Notes: a model not told the origin generated them from the sequence alone. 64,000 bases of DNA from Candidatus Bathyarchaeia archaeon (GCA_041447175.1 CP166960.1:507365-571364), one strand, 5' to 3'; counted from the first letter of the stretch, positions 31,926 to 39,752 are shown. Program-made: numbers and translations.

Positions 31926-32123
31926 ATGCTTAAGCGAAATAGAAGTTTGGTTGAGCATTGTGTTTGCCCCTACTGCAAACACACTCTTGAGGTTGTTTTA
32001 GAATCTGACCTGCGTTACGGCGTACACATCACCACAAGAAAAGTTACCCCCCAGTTGTTTCGTAACGAGGCGTTGAATAATTTAGTTACGAAAAAAAGAA
32101 GACTCAACATAAACAATTTCTAA
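31926..32123 (+). CDS. 65-residue protein with one CxxC
   Basis: The product starts LKRNRSLVEHCVCPYCKHTL and has a basic C-terminus (TKKRRLNINNF). The cysteines (C-x-C-x2-C) could form half of a zinc site. A TATA-like GATTATAT at 31907-31914 lies directly before it, so the mRNA would be leaderless or nearly so. No family is recognised. It is the last chromosomal gene before the integrated element. Confidence 0.55.
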   Translation: MLKRNRSLVEHCVCPYCKHTLEVVLESDLRYGVHITTRKVTPQLFRNEALNNLVTKKRRLNINNF

Positions 32124-32256: not shown

Positions 32257-32270
32257 GGGATTATTTCGCA
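32257..32270. repeat. left attachment-site repeat (attL)
   Basis: GGGATTATTTCGCA here equals bases 38611-38624. On the minus strand it reads TGC GAA ATA ATC CCC TGA, that is C-E-I-I-P-stop, so it keeps the original 3' end of the radical SAM gene now at 38607. Flanks on the left side (AAAACTCAG) resemble the right copy (AAAACTAA). Confidence 0.8.
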
Positions 32271-32361
32271 CCCCTCTGTAGTGGTGATGTCCCCATCTCC
32301 GCGCCAAAGCTCCCCTTTTTCTTCGTGCTGGGCAAGTTAGCATTCTTTTTGTCTTCGGCGT

Positions 32362-33663
32362 ATGAGGGCTTGTGTTTCTGCTGGGTCGTGTGCTGCTGAT
32401 TATGTTGACCCTGAGGGGAACGAATTTGAGTTAGTCAACGGAAAGCTGCTTCCTAAACGTTACCTCATGCCTGACGGCAAGGTTTACGTTGTTCAAAAAA
32501 TCAGGGGTGAAAATAAGCTTGTTTCGTTTGGAAACAGTCTTTTTGAGTCGCTTTCTGTTTATCGAAAAGACAAGTTTTCGCCGAAGCAAAAGCGCCATTT
32601 TATGAGACTGAGAAGCGGTATGACGCTTGGACAGTATCGGGGGGAAAGGCTTGTTTTTATGACGCTTTCTACGCAATATGACATAAAAAGAGACCGATTC
32701 GGAAATAAGATGGTTGATTCAAACGGGCGTAGTATTCCTGAGAAGCCCAAAGAGCGTAAAGAGAAGCTCAAATTGATGAATTATGCTTTTACTAAGCTCA
32801 AACAGCAGATTGAATATTATTTAACTCAAAAGATGTATGAGCGGTACTGTAAGAAAACTCATCGTGAGCCTTATGTTTATCTTGGGAAATTCAAAAAGAA
32901 AACTGTTAAGTATCCTAAACTTTGGGAACGGTTCCGTTTTAAACTCAAGTATTTTAAAATCAAAACTGATGAGGGCGGCGGGGTTATGCATATTGTTTTT
33001 AGAAAAGGTTACATGGTTCCCAAAATTCCTTTTCAGTGGCTTAGTGATAAGTGGGCGTTGCTTTGGGGTTCTCCGCGGGTCAATATCAAACAAATTGACA
33101 TTACGAGTGCTGAGGGTTTGAGCCTGTACATGGTTGGGCAGTATTTTGCGAAGCAGCCTGTTTTGAGGATGAGTTATGGGCGTCAGTGGGTTTGTGAGGG
33201 CTTCAAGAACTCATTTACGCATCTTGTTGATGTTTATGGTTTTTGGCGTGCAAAGGAAATTTGGGATAGAAACCTTAAGCTTGGGCTTCTTCCTACGGGG
33301 CGTTTGGGGCGTCAGACTCGTTTTCAGCATCGAAAGCTTAAGCCTAAGACTCAGGGTGTTGTTGGGTTTGCTAATTGGTCTTGTTGTTCTCGTCTTGAGG
33401 GTTGCTTTCAGGGTGGTAATTTGTTTTCTTCTAAGACTGTTCAGGCGGTTATTGATTCGCCTAAGTATTTTGAGGTTGTTGATGGCTTGAATATGGTTTA
33501 TACTGTTTTTACTGTTCGGCGTATGAAGCCCCAACTAAGAGAGCCTGACTCCTGCTTGGAATCGATGAAGTGGTGTATGCCTAAGCTTGAGTCTAAATTG
33601 CTTTCAGAGTCTGAAGTTTGGCGTTTGACCCATTCCACGGGCGACGGCAAAACCGTGCTCTGA
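32362..33663 (+). CDS. HUH-like rolling-circle replication initiator (Rep)
   Basis: Three motifs of Rep endonucleases occur in order. Motif 1 is RLVFMTLST near residue 97-104. Motif 2 is GGGVMHIVF near 205-213, where only the first His of HUH (His210) is kept. Motif 3 is YMVGQYFAK with the nicking Tyr-x2-Lys pair Tyr261/Lys264. The region between (WLSDKWALLWGSP) also fits archaeal plasmid and virus Reps. Rep nicks one strand at an origin to start replication. The codon use is T/G-rich, unlike neighbours, as expected for acquired DNA. The start may be GTG or ATG near 32362; the first 20 residues are uncertain. The second His is missing, so activity needs proof. Confidence 0.65.
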   Translation: MRACVSAGSCAADYVDPEGNEFELVNGKLLPKRYLMPDGKVYVVQKIRGENKLVSFGNSLFESLSVYRKDKFSPKQKRHFMRLRSGMTLGQYRGERLVFMTLSTQYDIKRDRFGNKMVDSNGRSIPEKPKERKEKLKLMNYAFTKLKQQIEYYLTQKMYERYCKKTHREPYVYLGKFKKKTVKYPKLWERFRFKLKYFKIKTDEGGGVMHIVFRKGYMVPKIPFQWLSDKWALLWGSPRVNIKQIDITSAEGLSLYMVGQYFAKQPVLRMSYGRQWVCEGFKNSFTHLVDVYGFWRAKEIWDRNLKLGLLPTGRLGRQTRFQHRKLKPKTQGVVGFANWSCCSRLEGCFQGGNLFSSKTVQAVIDSPKYFEVVDGLNMVYTVFTVRRMKPQLREPDSCLESMKWCMPKLESKLLSESEVWRLTHSTGDGKTVL

Positions 33664-34320
33664 TCTCGCTTGATTATTTCAAATGACCTTTGGGCTTCGG
33701 GGAACTCTTGAAAGCTTTGAGTGCTTGACCCTTACGCTTAGTTGCCAATAACTGACGTTTTCTGTACATTATTGTGTCAAATAGGACAAAAACCTATAAA
33801 AACTAACCGATTGTTATATTTGATACAAGTGGAGCGGCTTCACTCAGGTTATGGCTGTACACAGCTACGGGCGGTCTTTTGACCGCTATCGTTCTCTTTC
33901 TGTTCTACACAACTTCATAATTCGTCGTGTGCCCGCGATAGCGCGCGCCCACGCCAACCGCGGCAAGGGACTTTTTGCCATTTTTGCCCAGTACCGGCAA
34001 AAATGCATTGCGAAAAGTACGACGTTTTCTGGCGGGGGCGGCACTTGCGCTTGACAGCCCCTGACCGATGCCCCCTGGGGCAATCGGAGCGTAAGGATAC
34101 CCCGCCAGAAAACTCGCGCTTGCCCGATGGCGAGGGCGCGCAGAAAAGCGGGCACTTAACCGTCGGGCGAGCGAGCGAAGCGAGCGAGCCGAACCGCGCG
34201 ATAGCGCGGTTCCTTTCCTTGTTAGCATATAACAAAAAATCAGATTCAGCAAAACACAACACTGCACTGCAACATCTGGTAAAATCAGAATGACAACTCA
34301 AGAGACATCAAAGCTTGGCT
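33664..34320. other. G+C-rich hairpin-dense non-coding region, possible replication origin
   Basis: No gene is supported in 657 bases. Palindromes are packed closely: GCGGTC-TTTT-GACCGC (33871-33886), a stem CCGATGCCCC/GGGGCAATCGG around 34066-34087, inverted repeats of TTTTCTGGCGGGG near 34025 and 34099, a GAGC/GCTC-type run at 34165-34188, and GAACCGCGC-GATA-GCGCGGTTC (34191-34212). The region directly follows the Rep gene. Rolling-circle origins usually carry a nick hairpin and Rep-binding repeats, so this is the best origin candidate. Open frames here on both strands are artefacts of base composition. Confidence 0.5.
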
Positions 34321-34767
34321 TCATATTTGGAGGTATTTTGTGTACTCTCCAAAGTCTTGGCGCCATTGGTGCTGGGAGCGTTTGCTCCAAGTTGAGAATG
34401 CCTCGTTTACGTGTTTGGTGAATTCTTTTTCTGAGCAGCTGTTTACGGAGCAGAAGTGTTTGACTACTTTGGTGTAGTCGAGCTTTCCCTCATTGGCGAG
34501 TATGCCTGCTAAGCCTATGTGTTTTATGTGGTGGCACATTCTGCAAAGTAGTATGAAGCCCTCAAGTTTTTGTATGTGGGTGGTGTCGTTGTAGCTCCAT
34601 CTTTCGTGTAAGTTCATGGTTCCTGTGGTTTCTCCGCAGATTTGGCATTTTCTGCCGTTCTCTTTTATTATTTGGTCTCTTAGGCGGTTCCACACATCCG
34701 AGGGTAGGAGCCTGTAGAGTGAGGAGTACCAAACGGTTGAAGGCACTAATTCAGCGCTTAACTTCAT
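34321..34767 (-). CDS. HNH endonuclease-like protein
   Basis: The zinc/HNH core is ENGRKCQICGETTGTMNLHE, then the RW turn and LLCRMCHHIKH: two Cys pairs that hold zinc, and the catalytic His in NLHERW. HNH proteins of this size occur in archaeal plasmids and viruses as homing or packaging nucleases. ATG 34767 gives a product starting KLSAELVPSTVW, as in related proteins; an in-frame start lies at 34803. Confidence 0.8.
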   Translation of the reverse strand: MKLSAELVPSTVWYSSLYRLLPSDVWNRLRDQIIKENGRKCQICGETTGTMNLHERWSYNDTTHIQKLEGFILLCRMCHHIKHIGLAGILANEGKLDYTKVVKHFCSVNSCSEKEFTKHVNEAFSTWSKRSQHQWRQDFGEYTKYLQI

Positions 34768-34906
34768 GTAAAGTCCCAAAAAAGTATTCAAATCGGGCAA
34801 CATAACCTTTATGGTTTTCCTTGTATTGGTGACTTATTATAATACTACTTATACTACTTTTTACTTAAATACTAAAAAGATAATGTTATTTTGAGGAATA
34901 TTCAAA

Positions 34907-35140
34907 ATGGAGTTAGTGCTTGCGAGTCTCTGCTACTTCGGCGACCGATACGCTGAATTGTTCAGGGCAAAAGACGGCAGATATTACGTACAAATCTTTA
35001 ACCTAAACACCTGCGAGAACGTTACTGAATGGCTTATGGGCGACGACTATTTGGAATGGATAAAATGCCTCAAAAGAAACATACTCAAATGGAGAAAACA
35101 AATGAAAAAAGACCGCTTAAAATTAAGCGGCATCTTTTGA
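34907..35140 (+). CDS. 77-residue hypothetical protein of the element
   Basis: It begins ELVLASLCYFGDRYAELFRA and ends in a basic helix (LKRNILKWRKQMKKDRLKLS). A TATA-like run lies near 34840-34880. No family is recognised. The last codons overlap an 18-base palindrome (35113-35130). Confidence 0.5.
   Translation: MELVLASLCYFGDRYAELFRAKDGRYYVQIFNLNTCENVTEWLMGDDYLEWIKCLKRNILKWRKQMKKDRLKLSGIF
35113..35130 (+). terminator. palindrome at the end of the 34907 gene
   Basis: CCGCTTAA-AA-TTAAGCGG has perfect 8-bp arms and lies over the last codons and just before the stop at 35138-35140. It could be a terminator or a symmetric binding site; no strong T-run follows directly. Confidence 0.4.
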
Positions 35141-35170
35141 GCTAAATATTCCTTTCATAAATTTTTTATC

Positions 35171-35302
35171 ATGCAGGGAATCAAGGTCAACGAAACCGCC
35201 GTTTTTAATGGGTACCAGATTTTCCACAACTACATCCGACCCCACGAAGCCCTAAAAGGCAAAACCCCAGGTGAAGCATGCGGCATAATCGTCGAAGGTT
35301 AA
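35171..35302 (+). pseudogene. C-terminal remnant of a DDE transposase
   Basis: The 43-residue frame reads NGYQIFHNYIRPHEALKGKT and PGEACGII, the well-known C-terminal motif (NYIRPHxAL-GKTPAE) of archaeal DDE transposases; the catalytic domain is gone. It shows an earlier insertion-sequence event inside the element. Confidence 0.75.
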
Positions 35303-35366
35303 AACAAATGGAAAACACTCATAGAGAATTATAGTCAAAAAAAAGACGTACCCTCTCTTGTTATTT

Positions 35367-35615
35367 TTACCCAAGTTCGGAGCGGATTTTCGGCAACATT
35401 TTTGGGTTCAAAGAAACATGTATTGCATCTGGTTTGGGTTTAAAGATTATAAAGCCTTCTTTGTTCAGTTGTCTAGTAATATCGGCAACGTCTTTCCGCA
35501 TGTGTTTTGGGAATCCTTTAGGGATATTTTCGATGGAAGTATGTTTAGCCCCTATAAACTCTTGTCGAAGCATCTTTCTAAGAATTGCTTGTCTGATTTT
35601 CTTGTCCTTTGCCAA
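35367..35615 (-). CDS. 82-residue winged-helix-like protein
   Basis: The sequence KIRQAILRKMLRQEFIGAKH, IENIPKGFPKHMRKDVADIT and QLNKEGFIIFKPKPDAIHVS has the helix-helix-wing pattern of small DNA-binding archaeal proteins. A role in element control is possible. It is the only reading frame with coding character in this stretch. Confidence 0.65.
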   Translation of the reverse strand: MAKDKKIRQAILRKMLRQEFIGAKHTSIENIPKGFPKHMRKDVADITRQLNKEGFIIFKPKPDAIHVSLNPKMLPKIRSELG

Positions 35616-35832
35616 TAACGCATCCGCCCCGCAGCCGATACGGTTATCTATTGTGTATTTTCTTTCATATAAGTGTTTACTAAACTTAATATATGTGGAA
35701 AAAACATTGTTAAACGCCGATCATGTTTCAAATAAATACGATAAAGTAACTTTTATTTCACAAAGCTTTTATCCTAGTAGTTGACTATAACGTATGAACA
35801 GAAACCCGATCCCACCTTTCGGAGAACCAAAT

Positions 35833-36348
35833 ATGTCACCCTTAGAGGAGTTATTTGAAAGTAACGCAGTTGTAAAAATCCTAGATTTCTTGACGCTTTA
35901 CAAAGACTTTGAGTACACTCGAACGGAAATCGCTAGAGAAACAGGCATTAGCAGAAGAACGCTCTATCAAGTCTTTCCAACATTAGAAAAATTCGATTTG
36001 GTAACAGTTAGCAAAGCTGTTGGGAACTCAAAACTATACAAACTAAACACTGAAAATTCAATATGCGAAGTACTAGTGGCTTTAGGAGATGAAATAGCAT
36101 TTTTCAAAGCTGAAAAAGCAACTGGAATGTCATTAACAAGGAAAGAAGAATGCCAAACAGGTAACTTCAGTGAAGCTGTAATAAAAATAATTACCGTGAA
36201 AGGTAACACAGCCGACGTTAAGAGAATGGTTGAAGGTATAGGGGCAAATATGAACACATCATTTCCAATTACAGACATAACAAAGAATGCTCCAGAATCA
36301 ATGGAAGTGCAAATTATGAACGAAAAAGGAAGGTCACTGCCAAAATGA
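35833..36348 (+). CDS. winged HTH regulator of the element
   Basis: The N-terminal domain SPLEELFESNAVVKILDFLT, TRTEIARETGISRRTLYQVF and LEKFDLVTVSKAVGNSKLYK is a winged helix. ATG 35833 is preferred; 35794 is in frame. The C-terminal 80 residues are not recognised. It overlaps the next gene by 4 bases (ATGA), so both are one transcript. Probably it controls copy number, integrase or the partner gene. Confidence 0.75.
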   Translation: MSPLEELFESNAVVKILDFLTLYKDFEYTRTEIARETGISRRTLYQVFPTLEKFDLVTVSKAVGNSKLYKLNTENSICEVLVALGDEIAFFKAEKATGMSLTRKEECQTGNFSEAVIKIITVKGNTADVKRMVEGIGANMNTSFPITDITKNAPESMEVQIMNEKGRSLPK

Positions 36349-36911
36349 CTATAACAACAGCAGTTGAAAAAAAAGTCAAGTTTCTGGCTACAGGCATTTT
36401 TGCCGACTTTAAAATATCAAGAGAAGATTGGGACATTCACAAACTAGAAGATGGAACAAAAATCCGTTCAAAAGTTGTACTTATGACCTATATGAGTGAC
36501 AAAAGTCTTGAAGATGCAGAACTACAAATAAGAGACGGCAAAATACCCACTTTGGAAACAACCTTTAACTTTCAAACACTTATGGCAATAGAAGCGCCCA
36601 TAGAGCTGAGGGGAAAACCCGACAAAGCAACTTACAATCCCAAAGAACTAAAACCATGTATTGTTGCACCGCACCTCAACTTTGAAACTCAATTCCAAGC
36701 ATGGAATATATACAATTTAGGCTATGGGCACATATTAAAACTTCGCTTGACACCAATTGACTTTAGCAGAACAAGCAAACACGACGCAAACGGCATGCCA
36801 GTTTACGTATTTGACTCCAACGTTGAAGCTAAATTAATACTATCACAAGAACTGCAAAATTTGTTAGATAAAATTGAAAAGAAGAAACCCCCTGAAGCAA
36901 CAACCACTTAA
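36345..36911 (+). CDS. unrecognised protein coupled to the wHTH gene
   Basis: A 188-residue protein, mostly beta (VEKKVKFLATGIFADFKISR; IRSKVVLMTYMSDKS; LKPCIVAPHLNFETQF; MPVYVFDSNVEAKLIL) with a Thr-rich end. It starts inside the stop of the wHTH gene. No family is recognised; no transmembrane or signal sequence is seen. Confidence 0.65.
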   Translation: MTITTAVEKKVKFLATGIFADFKISREDWDIHKLEDGTKIRSKVVLMTYMSDKSLEDAELQIRDGKIPTLETTFNFQTLMAIEAPIELRGKPDKATYNPKELKPCIVAPHLNFETQFQAWNIYNLGYGHILKLRLTPIDFSRTSKHDANGMPVYVFDSNVEAKLILSQELQNLLDKIEKKKPPEATTT

Positions 36912-37367
36912 TTAACCCTTTTTTAAACCTCTTTTTGGTCCATTTTTTCTAAACTGTATTTATCAACTGATTCTTAGATTAAAAAGCCGAGATTAGGAAA
37001 CTTAAAGCTGTGACTCGTCTAGAGTTCGGGTTTCCTACACTGGCAATAGGCGCTGTGATTCGACTGTTTATGCTTAACGTCCACAGTTTCTTCAAAGATT
37101 GCGTGTCCACAGTTCTTACACTTCATACTTGAAGGATAATAAGAAGAGGCAAATTAACGCCAAGCTTCGCAGGAGAAAAAATGGTTTTGTAACAATTTGG
37201 TTAACCGAAAGTTTACATGGGAGAGAAGTAACCGGAAGAGTTTACAGAACCTAAAAACCAACGTTTTAAATTGGTAAATTAGTTGTTTATTGTTCTTAAC
37301 ATGTTAGTCAGTCTGACTCAGGGTTTTATTAGCTTGTAACTTTTTTTGGTTAGCGGAGGCTCATAGT
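36912..37367. other. mainly non-coding stretch holding one short zinc-protein gene
   Basis: Apart from the 35-residue frame on the minus strand (37019-37126), no gene is supported. The right end, 37250-37350, is A+T-rich and holds the integrase promoter and a GGAGG ribosome site (37355-37359). Confidence 0.5.
37019..37126 (-). CDS. 35-residue zinc-ribbon-like protein
   Basis: The product KCKNCGHAIFEETVDVKHKQ ends in SAYCQCRKPEL. It has C-x2-C, then His and C-x-C-x2-K-P-E, the layout of tiny archaeal zinc proteins. The TAG stop and ATG start are in frame over 36 codons. No ribosome site is clear, so the assignment is moderate. Confidence 0.5.
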   Translation of the reverse strand: MKCKNCGHAIFEETVDVKHKQSNHSAYCQCRKPEL

Positions 37368-38576
37368 ATCACAATTACTGCAGAGGCATCACAGGGAGGT
37401 GAAGAGACAAAAAGAGAATGCCCTAATTGTCATAGCACAAGAATTTGGGAAGATGGTTTTAGGAAATCATCAACTGGAGCCCTAATAAAAAGGTACAGAT
37501 GTGCCGATTACGGTCATCGATTTAGTCAACATTTTCCTAGGCAAAAAATAATAGCTCCTTCAGCGCTTAAAGAGAGTCACCAAGTATGCGAGCAACTCCT
37601 GCAGGAGAAATCGAAAAACTTGGACTTAGCGCAAGAAATCAAGCTTGCGCGGAGAAAACAGAAACATACACCAACAGAGAACGAAGTTAAAGCAACCCCT
37701 AAAATCCAAAAGCTCCTCGAACAAGTAAGGAATGATGGACGGACTGCTGGAACAGTAAGTAACTATCGCAAGACCTTCAATCGTTTACTACAAGCAGGGG
37801 CAGACCTGTTTGACCCAGAAAATACAAAAGCCGTCTTAGCTAACCTGTCAAATAAGCCAAGAGCAAAGAAAAACATGGTTGCCATGCTGTCAGTTTGGTA
37901 TGACTTTAATGGCATAGGCTGGCGACCGCCAAAGTACACTGGAGATAGCGGAATACCCTTTTTAGCAACTGAGAGTCAACTGGATACGCTTATTGCAGCC
38001 GTTGGCAAAAAAACCGCAGCATATCTACAGCTACTAAAGGAAACGGGTGCTAGACCTGGCGAAATATCGGACATAACTTGGGAAAGCATTAACTTTCAAG
38101 CGCGAACAATTCGTATAGCCGCTGAAAAAGGAAGCAACAGTCGAATTTTGCCAATATCCCTCAAAGCCATTGAAATGTTGAGCAATATCCCACAAGGCGA
38201 AGGCAAGCTTTTTTGTAAAGCCGATTCTATGCGTACAACCTTGTTCTATCAACGCCGACGAATAGCAAAGCGATTGGCAGCCCCAGAGCTTAAGCAAATT
38301 AGCTTCAAAACATTTAGACATTGGAAAGGCACTACAGAGCAGCATCGGACAAAAGACCCGTGGCACGTAAAGCTAATTTTAGGACACAAGTCGATTACAA
38401 GCACTGAAACATACATACATTATGAGCAGATGATTTATCAAAGCGAGGCAAACGACCAATTCATAACAAAAGTAGCGCTTAACGTTGAAGAAGCTTGCAA
38501 ATTAATTGATGTTGGCTTTGAGTATGTCACAGGCGAATATAATGACGGTGGAAAAATCTTCCGAAAGCGAAAGTAA
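37368..38576 (+). CDS. zinc-ribbon tyrosine recombinase (integrase) of the element
   Basis: The catalytic domain has GARPGEISDITWESI (first Arg), a Lys in AEKGSNSRILP, FKTFRHWKGT (Lys in place of the box II His, then Arg), LGHKSITSTETYIHY (His and nucleophile Tyr). The frame from TTG 37620 is open upstream to 37320 and encodes a clear zinc ribbon, KRECPNCHSTRIWEDGFRKS followed by YRCADYGHRFSQ. So the true protein is longer. No ATG/GTG/TTG exists in that part; GGAGG at 37355-37359 points to ATC at 37368 as a non-standard or mutated start. The gene lies 34 bases from the right repeat, as usual for integrases. Confidence 0.8.
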   Translation: MTITAEASQGGEETKRECPNCHSTRIWEDGFRKSSTGALIKRYRCADYGHRFSQHFPRQKIIAPSALKESHQVCEQLLQEKSKNLDLAQEIKLARRKQKHTPTENEVKATPKIQKLLEQVRNDGRTAGTVSNYRKTFNRLLQAGADLFDPENTKAVLANLSNKPRAKKNMVAMLSVWYDFNGIGWRPPKYTGDSGIPFLATESQLDTLIAAVGKKTAAYLQLLKETGARPGEISDITWESINFQARTIRIAAEKGSNSRILPISLKAIEMLSNIPQGEGKLFCKADSMRTTLFYQRRRIAKRLAAPELKQISFKTFRHWKGTTEQHRTKDPWHVKLILGHKSITSTETYIHYEQMIYQSEANDQFITKVALNVEEACKLIDVGFEYVTGEYNDGGKIFRKRK

Positions 38577-38606
38577 CCTAAAACATACAACGGATTATCT
38601 AAAAAA

Positions 38607-39752
38607 CTAAGGGATTATTTCGCAGCCGTTGTACTTGAGGTATTCAAAGTCGCTTAAGGCGATTTTTTTCTCCTCAATCAGCCGCATGATGCGGGGCACC
38701 TCTGACTTCACGGCGGCAATTAATCTCTTGACCGTGTAGCAGACTTCCCCGTACGCTTGGTCGTTCCAGCGTTGGGTGATGTTTGCGTATAGACATCTTC
38801 CTCCGCAAACTTCTAAGGTGTCGCAGTTTATGCACGGGGGGTCCTTTACAAGTACGCGGTCAAGCGTATTAGGGTCCGACTCAGAGATGTGTCCTAAATA
38901 GTATTTTTTCATGCCCCACATGGTTGGGCAGGGAATGATGTAGCCGTCGGTTTGAATGGCGTAGTTAATCCATCCTGCGCCGCAACGCATCAAGCTGGGT
39001 TGTTTATCAAACAGAACCGAGTGGGCTACCCCCAGCAGCGGGTATAGGCGGAGTACGATTCCTTTTTGCTCCATGAGGTCCACCCAGAACTTAGCCAGCT
39101 TATCCACGCCTGGACTGTAGCTTTCTTGGCTCCACTGCCTGAAATCTCGTCGGGCGTAGTCGTTGCCCCAAAAACCCGCGTTGAGTTGCCAATGTATGCT
39201 AGAAAACGAAAACTCCTCGTTGTCCAGTAACCACATGATTTGTTTGTAAATGTCGGTTTGCTCCATAACCGTAACGCGGGCGATGAGTTCCCCGCTAAAT
39301 CCGTTGCTTTGAACTAGTTTGATGTTGTCGATGGCTTTTCGGAAGGTGCCTTGACCGCGGTAGTAGTCGGTGAGTTTTTCGTCCCCGTCAACTGAGACTA
39401 GAATTGTGTGGAGGCGGTTAACGTAATCTGGCTCCAACTGGTTTAGCAGTTGCCCGTTTGTTTGAATCATAAAGTTTTTCGCTGGAACTTGGTCCATGAT
39501 CTGCTTAAGTGCGTCCCTGTTCAGCAGGGGCTCGCCGCCATAAAAAGTCACCGTGCAGTCAGGGTCTTTTCTGCAAAATTGGCTAAGGTACTCTATGTCG
39601 TAGTTGACTTTTTTGGGCAACGAATAGTCCAGTTCGAAGTCGCCAAAGTCCTCATCGAAGTCATCCAAAGTTTCGCCAAAACAGTAGCGGCACTGCAGGT
39701 TACAATCCGTGGTCAGGATTACATGGATGAACATGCCTGCAGTTGAAGACAC
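38607..39752 (-). CDS. peptide-modifying radical SAM/SPASM enzyme (AF1577-like)
   Basis: The radical SAM motif is TTDCNLQCRYCFG (Cys17, Cys21, Cys24). A TFYGGEPLLN strand, LVSVDGDEKLTDYYRGQGTF, and SPASM cysteines in RCGAGW, IPCPTMW, CINCDTLEVCGGRCLYAN and VCYTVKRL follow. This is the AF1577-type family, catalogued as putative peptide-modifying enzymes with several Fe-S clusters. It lies 6 bases after the MFS gene on the same strand. Its 3' end is the element's attachment site but remains intact. ATG 39734 may be the real start (FIHVILTTDC). Confidence 0.85.
   Translation of the reverse strand: MSSTAGMFIHVILTTDCNLQCRYCFGETLDDFDEDFGDFELDYSLPKKVNYDIEYLSQFCRKDPDCTVTFYGGEPLLNRDALKQIMDQVPAKNFMIQTNGQLLNQLEPDYVNRLHTILVSVDGDEKLTDYYRGQGTFRKAIDNIKLVQSNGFSGELIARVTVMEQTDIYKQIMWLLDNEEFSFSSIHWQLNAGFWGNDYARRDFRQWSQESYSPGVDKLAKFWVDLMEQKGIVLRLYPLLGVAHSVLFDKQPSLMRCGAGWINYAIQTDGYIIPCPTMWGMKKYYLGHISESDPNTLDRVLVKDPPCINCDTLEVCGGRCLYANITQRWNDQAYGEVCYTVKRLIAAVKSEVPRIMRLIEEKKIALSDFEYLKYNGCEIIP
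38611..38624. repeat. right attachment-site repeat (attR)
   Basis: GGGATTATTTCGCA here is part of the last codons of the radical SAM gene (minus strand GC-E-I-I-P-stop, with TAG from element DNA). It equals 32257-32270. Confidence 0.8.

Follow-up and report, generated by a model that had tools for sequence, protein, structure and literature searches.

A putative integrative plasmid of rolling-circle type at the 3' end of a radical SAM gene in Bathyarchaeia

Described integrated elements and the bathyarchaeal locus

In 20 thaumarchaeal genomes, 14 of the 68 mapped integrated elements occupy the 3' ends of protein-coding genes (Krupovic et al. 2019, PMC6563490). The thaumarchaeal cryptic integrated elements (CIEs) are bounded by short att repeats (median 17 bp; 13 bp in NitEve-E2), replacement of a stop codon by integration has one worked example, and one CIE, NitAQ6f-E2, encodes a rolling-circle (RCR) initiator (PMC6563490). 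The statement in a sequence-only reading of the present locus that integrases rarely use protein-gene 3' ends was therefore too strong. In the virus SNJ2, int and rep become part of a single operon on excision, and replication has been shown to depend on this step (Wang et al. 2026, PMC13107129).

How does the locus described here relate to these systems? It lies in a 64-kb stretch of DNA (the window) from a member of Bathyarchaeia whose genome is a single contig of 2.73 Mb. The element shares with thaumarchaeal CIEs a tyrosine integrase, a short att repeat, a target in a protein-gene 3' end and a replaced stop codon. NitEve-E2 is thus a precedent for its integration into a protein-gene 3' end, and NitAQ6f-E2 for its proposed replication by an RCR Rep. 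The element differs from these CIEs in its host class, its target gene, a Rep unmatched in sequence libraries and a large covarying origin-like region, and also in a layout that is common to sister plasmids with different targets. As in the betapleolipovirus SNJ2, whose initiator is Rep-Arvir (DUF7845), int and rep occupy the two extremes of the integrated DNA, from which excision would bring them into one operon, and structured DNA is located downstream of rep (PMC13107129). The element differs from SNJ2 in that 12 members of its Rep family give no DUF7845 match, the fold search with its Rep points to the HUH type rather than to Rep_trans, virion genes are absent, the circle would carry int and then rep with ~90 bp between them, and the structure has ~10 times the length of the hairpin in SNJ2. 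A site-specific tyrosine recombinase is likewise used by archaeal integrative plasmids of the pT26-2 type, but these target tRNA genes and in part split the integrase gene, which stays whole in the present element (reviewed in PMC8371274).

Boundaries, integrase and target site

The 14-mer GGGATTATTTCGCA forms an exact pair in the window (32257-32270 and 38611-38624) that bounds 6.35 kb. The whole genome contains only these two exact copies and one further place with a single mismatch. The target is a radical SAM/SPASM gene of TIGR04084 (AF0577 family; 38607-39752, minus strand), which scores 311 bits against a cut-off of 225. Read on the minus strand, the attR core (right copy, 38611-38624) restores the end of this gene as ...YNGCEIIP-TAG. 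The attL core (left copy, 32257-32270) reads CEIIP-TGA on that strand and represents the displaced native gene end; the bases just outside attL match the equivalent place in G004 (L055:5788). An imperfect palindrome, GTGGTGATGTCCCCATC (32281-32297), forms a left P-arm that is kept just inside attL in other elements of this site, as GTGGTGATGTCACCAAC in G006 and ATGGTGACGTCACCATT in G004. No tRNA gene was found in the 64-kb window. In G003, a genome of the same genus, a histidine kinase gene and the radical SAM gene stand tail to tail without an element, with 42 bp separating the end of the kinase match from that of the radical SAM gene; in the window, the histidine kinase gene sits to the left of the element. 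A 65-aa ORF with a CxxC motif (31926-32123), located between the kinase gene and attL, is missing from the short G003 spacer.

What the sequence-only reading had proposed for these boundaries stands. The repeat bounds the element exactly as claimed, the integrase frame indeed lies next to the right copy and ends at 38576, 34 bp short of it, both copies do encode CEIIP followed by a stop on the minus strand, and the insertion into the 3' end of the gene with restoration of its last codons and stop can be read from the att copies. That reading had also proposed a search for an empty site in related genomes, and G003 provides a clean one. It had named a layout without a clean junction, or a repeat common elsewhere, as evidence against insertion; the G003 junction is clean, and the repeat has two copies genome-wide.

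The integrase occupies an open frame at 37371-38576 (plus strand), matches Pfam Phage_integrase (E 1.2e-18) and carries the zinc ribbon that had been claimed for it. It is XerA-like and matches NCBIfam XerA_Arch with an E-value of 1e-22. Because this score lies under the equivalog cut-off, we regard the integrase as a relative of XerA rather than XerA itself. The earliest in-frame ATG, GTG or TTG is at 37620, and none precedes the zinc ribbon; the integrase may thus use another start or be damaged. Integrases of this type are common in the class (a match in 38 of 41 relatives), and nearly all of those in our tree possess the N-terminal zinc ribbon. The integrases of the radical SAM site group together in the tree, with support of 100/100 for those of the window, G006 and G004 and of 100/97 once that of G008 and one unmapped integrase (L005) join, and integrases beside tRNA-Ala, -Pro, -His, -Leu and -Phe genes are placed elsewhere. 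This distribution argues that the target is set by the integrase.

The same gene end has received other elements. G006 contains a different element of 15.8 kb with a 20-bp repeat, G004 contains a 7.5-kb element, and G002 retains a 3.8-kb remnant; each of the three carries an integrase or an integrase remnant at its right inner end. Of 60 genomes surveyed, 12, which represent at least 9 genera, have an integrase match that ends no more than 250 bp from the end of the radical SAM gene; the match in G118 is weak (E 0.011). Scars were also recognized by eye in G002, G012 and G156, and the occupants in G002, G019, G020 and G012 are clear remnants. The radical SAM gene end is a long-used integration hotspot. 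The sequence-only reading had noticed neither this reuse of the site nor the sister plasmids at other targets (see below). The 15.8-kb element of G006 (L052:253-16053) encodes two large proteins: one of 1045 aa, which lacks a Pfam or NCBIfam match and has the look of a primase-helicase, and a HATPase_c protein of 768 aa, which resembles a one-chain type II topoisomerase. At L115 (G117:C130:16941-17268), part of the radical SAM C-terminus is present a second time beside the intact gene, interrupted by stops; this extra copy is perhaps the trace of a larger recombination at the site.

A review of archaeal integrases poses the question of whether protein-gene targets have dyad symmetry (PMC8371274). 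In the window, an element-borne inverted copy, TACAACGG (38586-38593), mirrors the gene half-site at 38626-38633. A similar inverted motif is present at most occupied or scarred sites and absent at clean empty sites. Compared with shuffled sequences, the attR dyad reaches 0.024 in the window and 0.06-0.9 at the other sites; we treat it as suggestive because it is not significant alone at most sites. The radical SAM site therefore bears on the dyad-symmetry question, with the suggestion that the element brings the inverted partner for the gene half-site.

Rep and the structured region downstream of rep

The first gene of the element encodes Rep, a 433-aa protein (32362-33663, plus strand) that conserved motifs and a fold search against viral models suggest to be an HUH-like rolling-circle initiator. 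Rep has no match among Pfam, PHROG or PDB sequences, and nothing related was found in IMG/VR contigs, phage records or plasmid records. Counting the host itself, 10 of the 257 genomes examined from the class encode a relative. Twelve aligned Reps keep F[ML]TL[ST], EGxGVxH and YxxxxY in the order seen in HUH initiators, with H210, Y256 and Y261 invariant. The two-histidine HUH motif is incomplete: H210 is its only conserved histidine, and the second is missing. The AlphaFold model of the Rep core (mean pLDDT 79) places the motif strand, the histidine strand and the tyrosine helix in the expected order. A Foldseek search of BFVD with the full-length model (mean pLDDT 60) retrieved microvirus replication initiators at probabilities of 0.99-1.0, and the resemblance extends to inovirus initiators; fold matches in the PDB are not significant, with an HUH nuclease domain ranked third and first. 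Without the second histidine, Rep falls outside the strict definition of HUH initiators, but it may still work as they do. A Rep-Arvir identity was discarded, since none of the 12 family members matches DUF7845 (PF25227) at E-values up to 1. An IS91-like transposon, which would also combine a Rep with an origin, was set aside because site-specific att repeats, accompanied by an integrase, form the ends of the sister copies.

Downstream of rep, a GC-rich region (33922-34240, plus strand) is strongly structured. The ~320-nt plus strand at 33920-34240 folds at -169.7 kcal/mol, compared with -121.4 kcal/mol for shuffled sequences (z -9.2). An alignment with two G006 elements, which comprises three sequences over the full structure, yields 85 consensus pairs that are 94% paired. 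Both sides have changed in 30 of these 85 pairs, as against 10.6 in shuffled alignments (none of 500 reaches the observed value) and at most 7 when the pairing is slid. At its end, a GC hairpin precedes CCTTTCCTTGT, after which comes a short AT-rich tail; six elements keep this arrangement. The conserved CCTTTCCTTGTTAGCATATAACAAA past the hairpin (34212-34236, plus strand), present in the same number of elements, is a candidate nick-site region. Because a strict sequence pattern proved too narrow for the motif search, we used a covariance model of the structure end instead, which recovered from 91 genomes the same six places strongly and two further places weakly. Rfam returned chance-level matches only, and no family fits the region. 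In all six elements, the region follows rep or precedes int; its distance from rep is 1.3 kb in L088, and it adjoins int in the G129 elements. Because it stays with rep or int even where the remaining gene content differs, we favor a DNA element, and the region is probably the replication origin. The sequence-only reading had likewise listed a possible origin but had missed the strong covariation of the fold.

Could the region instead encode a stable non-coding RNA that acts, for instance, in copy-number control or as a partner of the HNH protein? The fold and the covariation are very strong and extend over ~250 nt, which is longer than is typical of hairpin origins, and the HNH gene adjoins the region in the window and weakly matches IscB (E 0.0018, far under the cut-off). 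However, HNH homologues were not found near the region in L088, L087, L105 and L106, and its position after rep or before int is invariable. Furthermore, the pair table contains G-U and A-C cells at roughly the same frequency, indicating no strand preference, and the conserved 3' motif CCTTTCCTTGT suits a nick site. We consider an RNA unlikely, though it deserves serious attention; the specific IscB/omega-RNA reading was abandoned, given how far the IscB match lies under the cut-off.

The HNH endonuclease (160 aa; 34321-34803, minus strand) matches PHROG 5200 (E 2e-31), and a homologue adjoins another Rep in G006. It is paired with a conserved 77-aa protein (34907-35140, plus strand; 74% identity in L051/L086). 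A gene for an 82-aa protein (35367-35615, minus strand) diverges from that of a 184-aa winged helix-turn-helix regulator (35794-36348, plus strand), which matches Pfam Rrf2 above its cut-off (E 6e-8). A 188-aa protein without a family match (36345-36911, plus strand) is encoded in a frame that overlaps the regulator gene by 4 bp. The sequence-only reading was right in listing HNH, winged helix-turn-helix and Rep genes. A homologous version of the divergent pair (35367-36348) recurs at L088:2307-3114, near but outside the plasmid at G006:C17. PADLOC gave only weak HTH and Cas-like matches, and a defense-system reading was dropped for that reason.

Sister plasmids, excision and element class

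Two complete sister elements share the organization of the window element: one of 6105 bp in G134, inserted in tRNA-Leu(CAG), and one of 6070 bp at G006:C17, each with 23-bp repeats. In all three, rep starts shortly inside attL (105 bp in the window, 106 bp in G134 and 116 bp at G006:C17), and the integrase gene ends shortly before attR in the same direction as rep. With int and rep at opposite ends on the same strand, the circle would run int straight into rep. For none of the three plasmids did a crude scan find a TATA-like box in the interval from attL to rep. Outside attL of the G006:C17 plasmid, L088:14900-14990 looks like the C-terminus of another integrase, a sign of earlier integration at the same place.

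The clean empty site, the reuse of the site by other elements and the sister plasmids at other targets together lead us to interpret the 6.35-kb stretch as an integrated plasmid of a Bathyarchaeia archaeon with an integrase-set target. We propose that a circular plasmid was inserted by its own XerA-like integrase at the 14-bp core in the last codons of the TIGR04084 gene; as the att sequences show, attP would carry equivalent last codons and a stop, so that the target gene stays whole. Replication would be rolling-circle-like, started by the HUH-like Rep at the structured region 3' of rep. In the integrated state, rep would lack a promoter-like sequence between attL and its start, and excision would bring int immediately 5' of rep on the same strand, making replication dependent on excision. 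By analogy with SNJ2, rep may thus be switched on when excision joins int to rep. We regard this account as a whole as likely, with the rolling-circle step and the excision switch as its predicted parts.

A decayed, immobile remnant whose integrase was formerly active is distinctly less plausible and, in our judgment, rather improbable. The integrase lacks a usual start codon ahead of the zinc ribbon, and clear remnants occupy the radical SAM site in four other genomes, but the two 14-bp copies are identical, neither Rep nor the integrase frame (a 419-aa open frame with no stops) is broken, and size and layout equal those of the two sister plasmids.

The relatives in G129 raise the question of a provirus, for example a filamentous one. 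Two of them share Rep, the origin motif and the integrase type with the window element, and they carry a Zot-like ATPase and a large secreted protein; moreover, Rep resembles microvirus and inovirus initiators. The annotation of the window element, however, contains no gene for an ATPase, a coat-like protein or a secreted protein, and a proviral nature is very unlikely. In the G129 elements L105 and L106, together with L089 and L090, a P-loop ATPase whose Zot-like matches are weak (Pfam 0.01, PHROG 0.0023) accompanies a small membrane protein and a secreted protein of 622/643 aa. One of these elements is bounded by a 22-bp repeat in tRNA-Phe, split over two contigs. From this gene content, the G129 elements are possible filamentous proviruses of Bathyarchaeia. 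Finally, a chance repeat around unrelated genes, conceivable for a core of only 14 bp, can be dismissed on the basis of just two exact copies in 2.73 Mb, the adjoining integrase, the clean empty site in G003 and the occupation of the same site in other genomes.

The integrated plasmid is best classed as a cryptic integrated element of rolling-circle type. Bounding repeats and an integrase, the features of such elements, are present, the close relative G003 has the empty site, and no capsid, casposase or conjugation gene was recognized among the ORFs scanned. The view of the sequence-only reading that the element matches no type it could name went too far, as the element fits a cryptic integrated element or an integrative rolling-circle plasmid. 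The integration mode is already known; what is new is the plasmid family, the unmatched Rep and the large covarying origin-like region. In the literature searched, we found no description of a plasmid of this kind in Bathyarchaeia. More tentatively, and with doubt still outweighing confidence, the element may represent an undescribed bathyarchaeal plasmid family that combines a ~250-nt multi-helix covarying single-strand origin (or a new RNA class), a Rep external to the libraries and a rep gene silent until excision. Bathyarchaeia are abundant and hard to culture. As a compact 6-kb replicon with rep, a probable origin, an integrase and a defined att site, the element is a candidate vector backbone.
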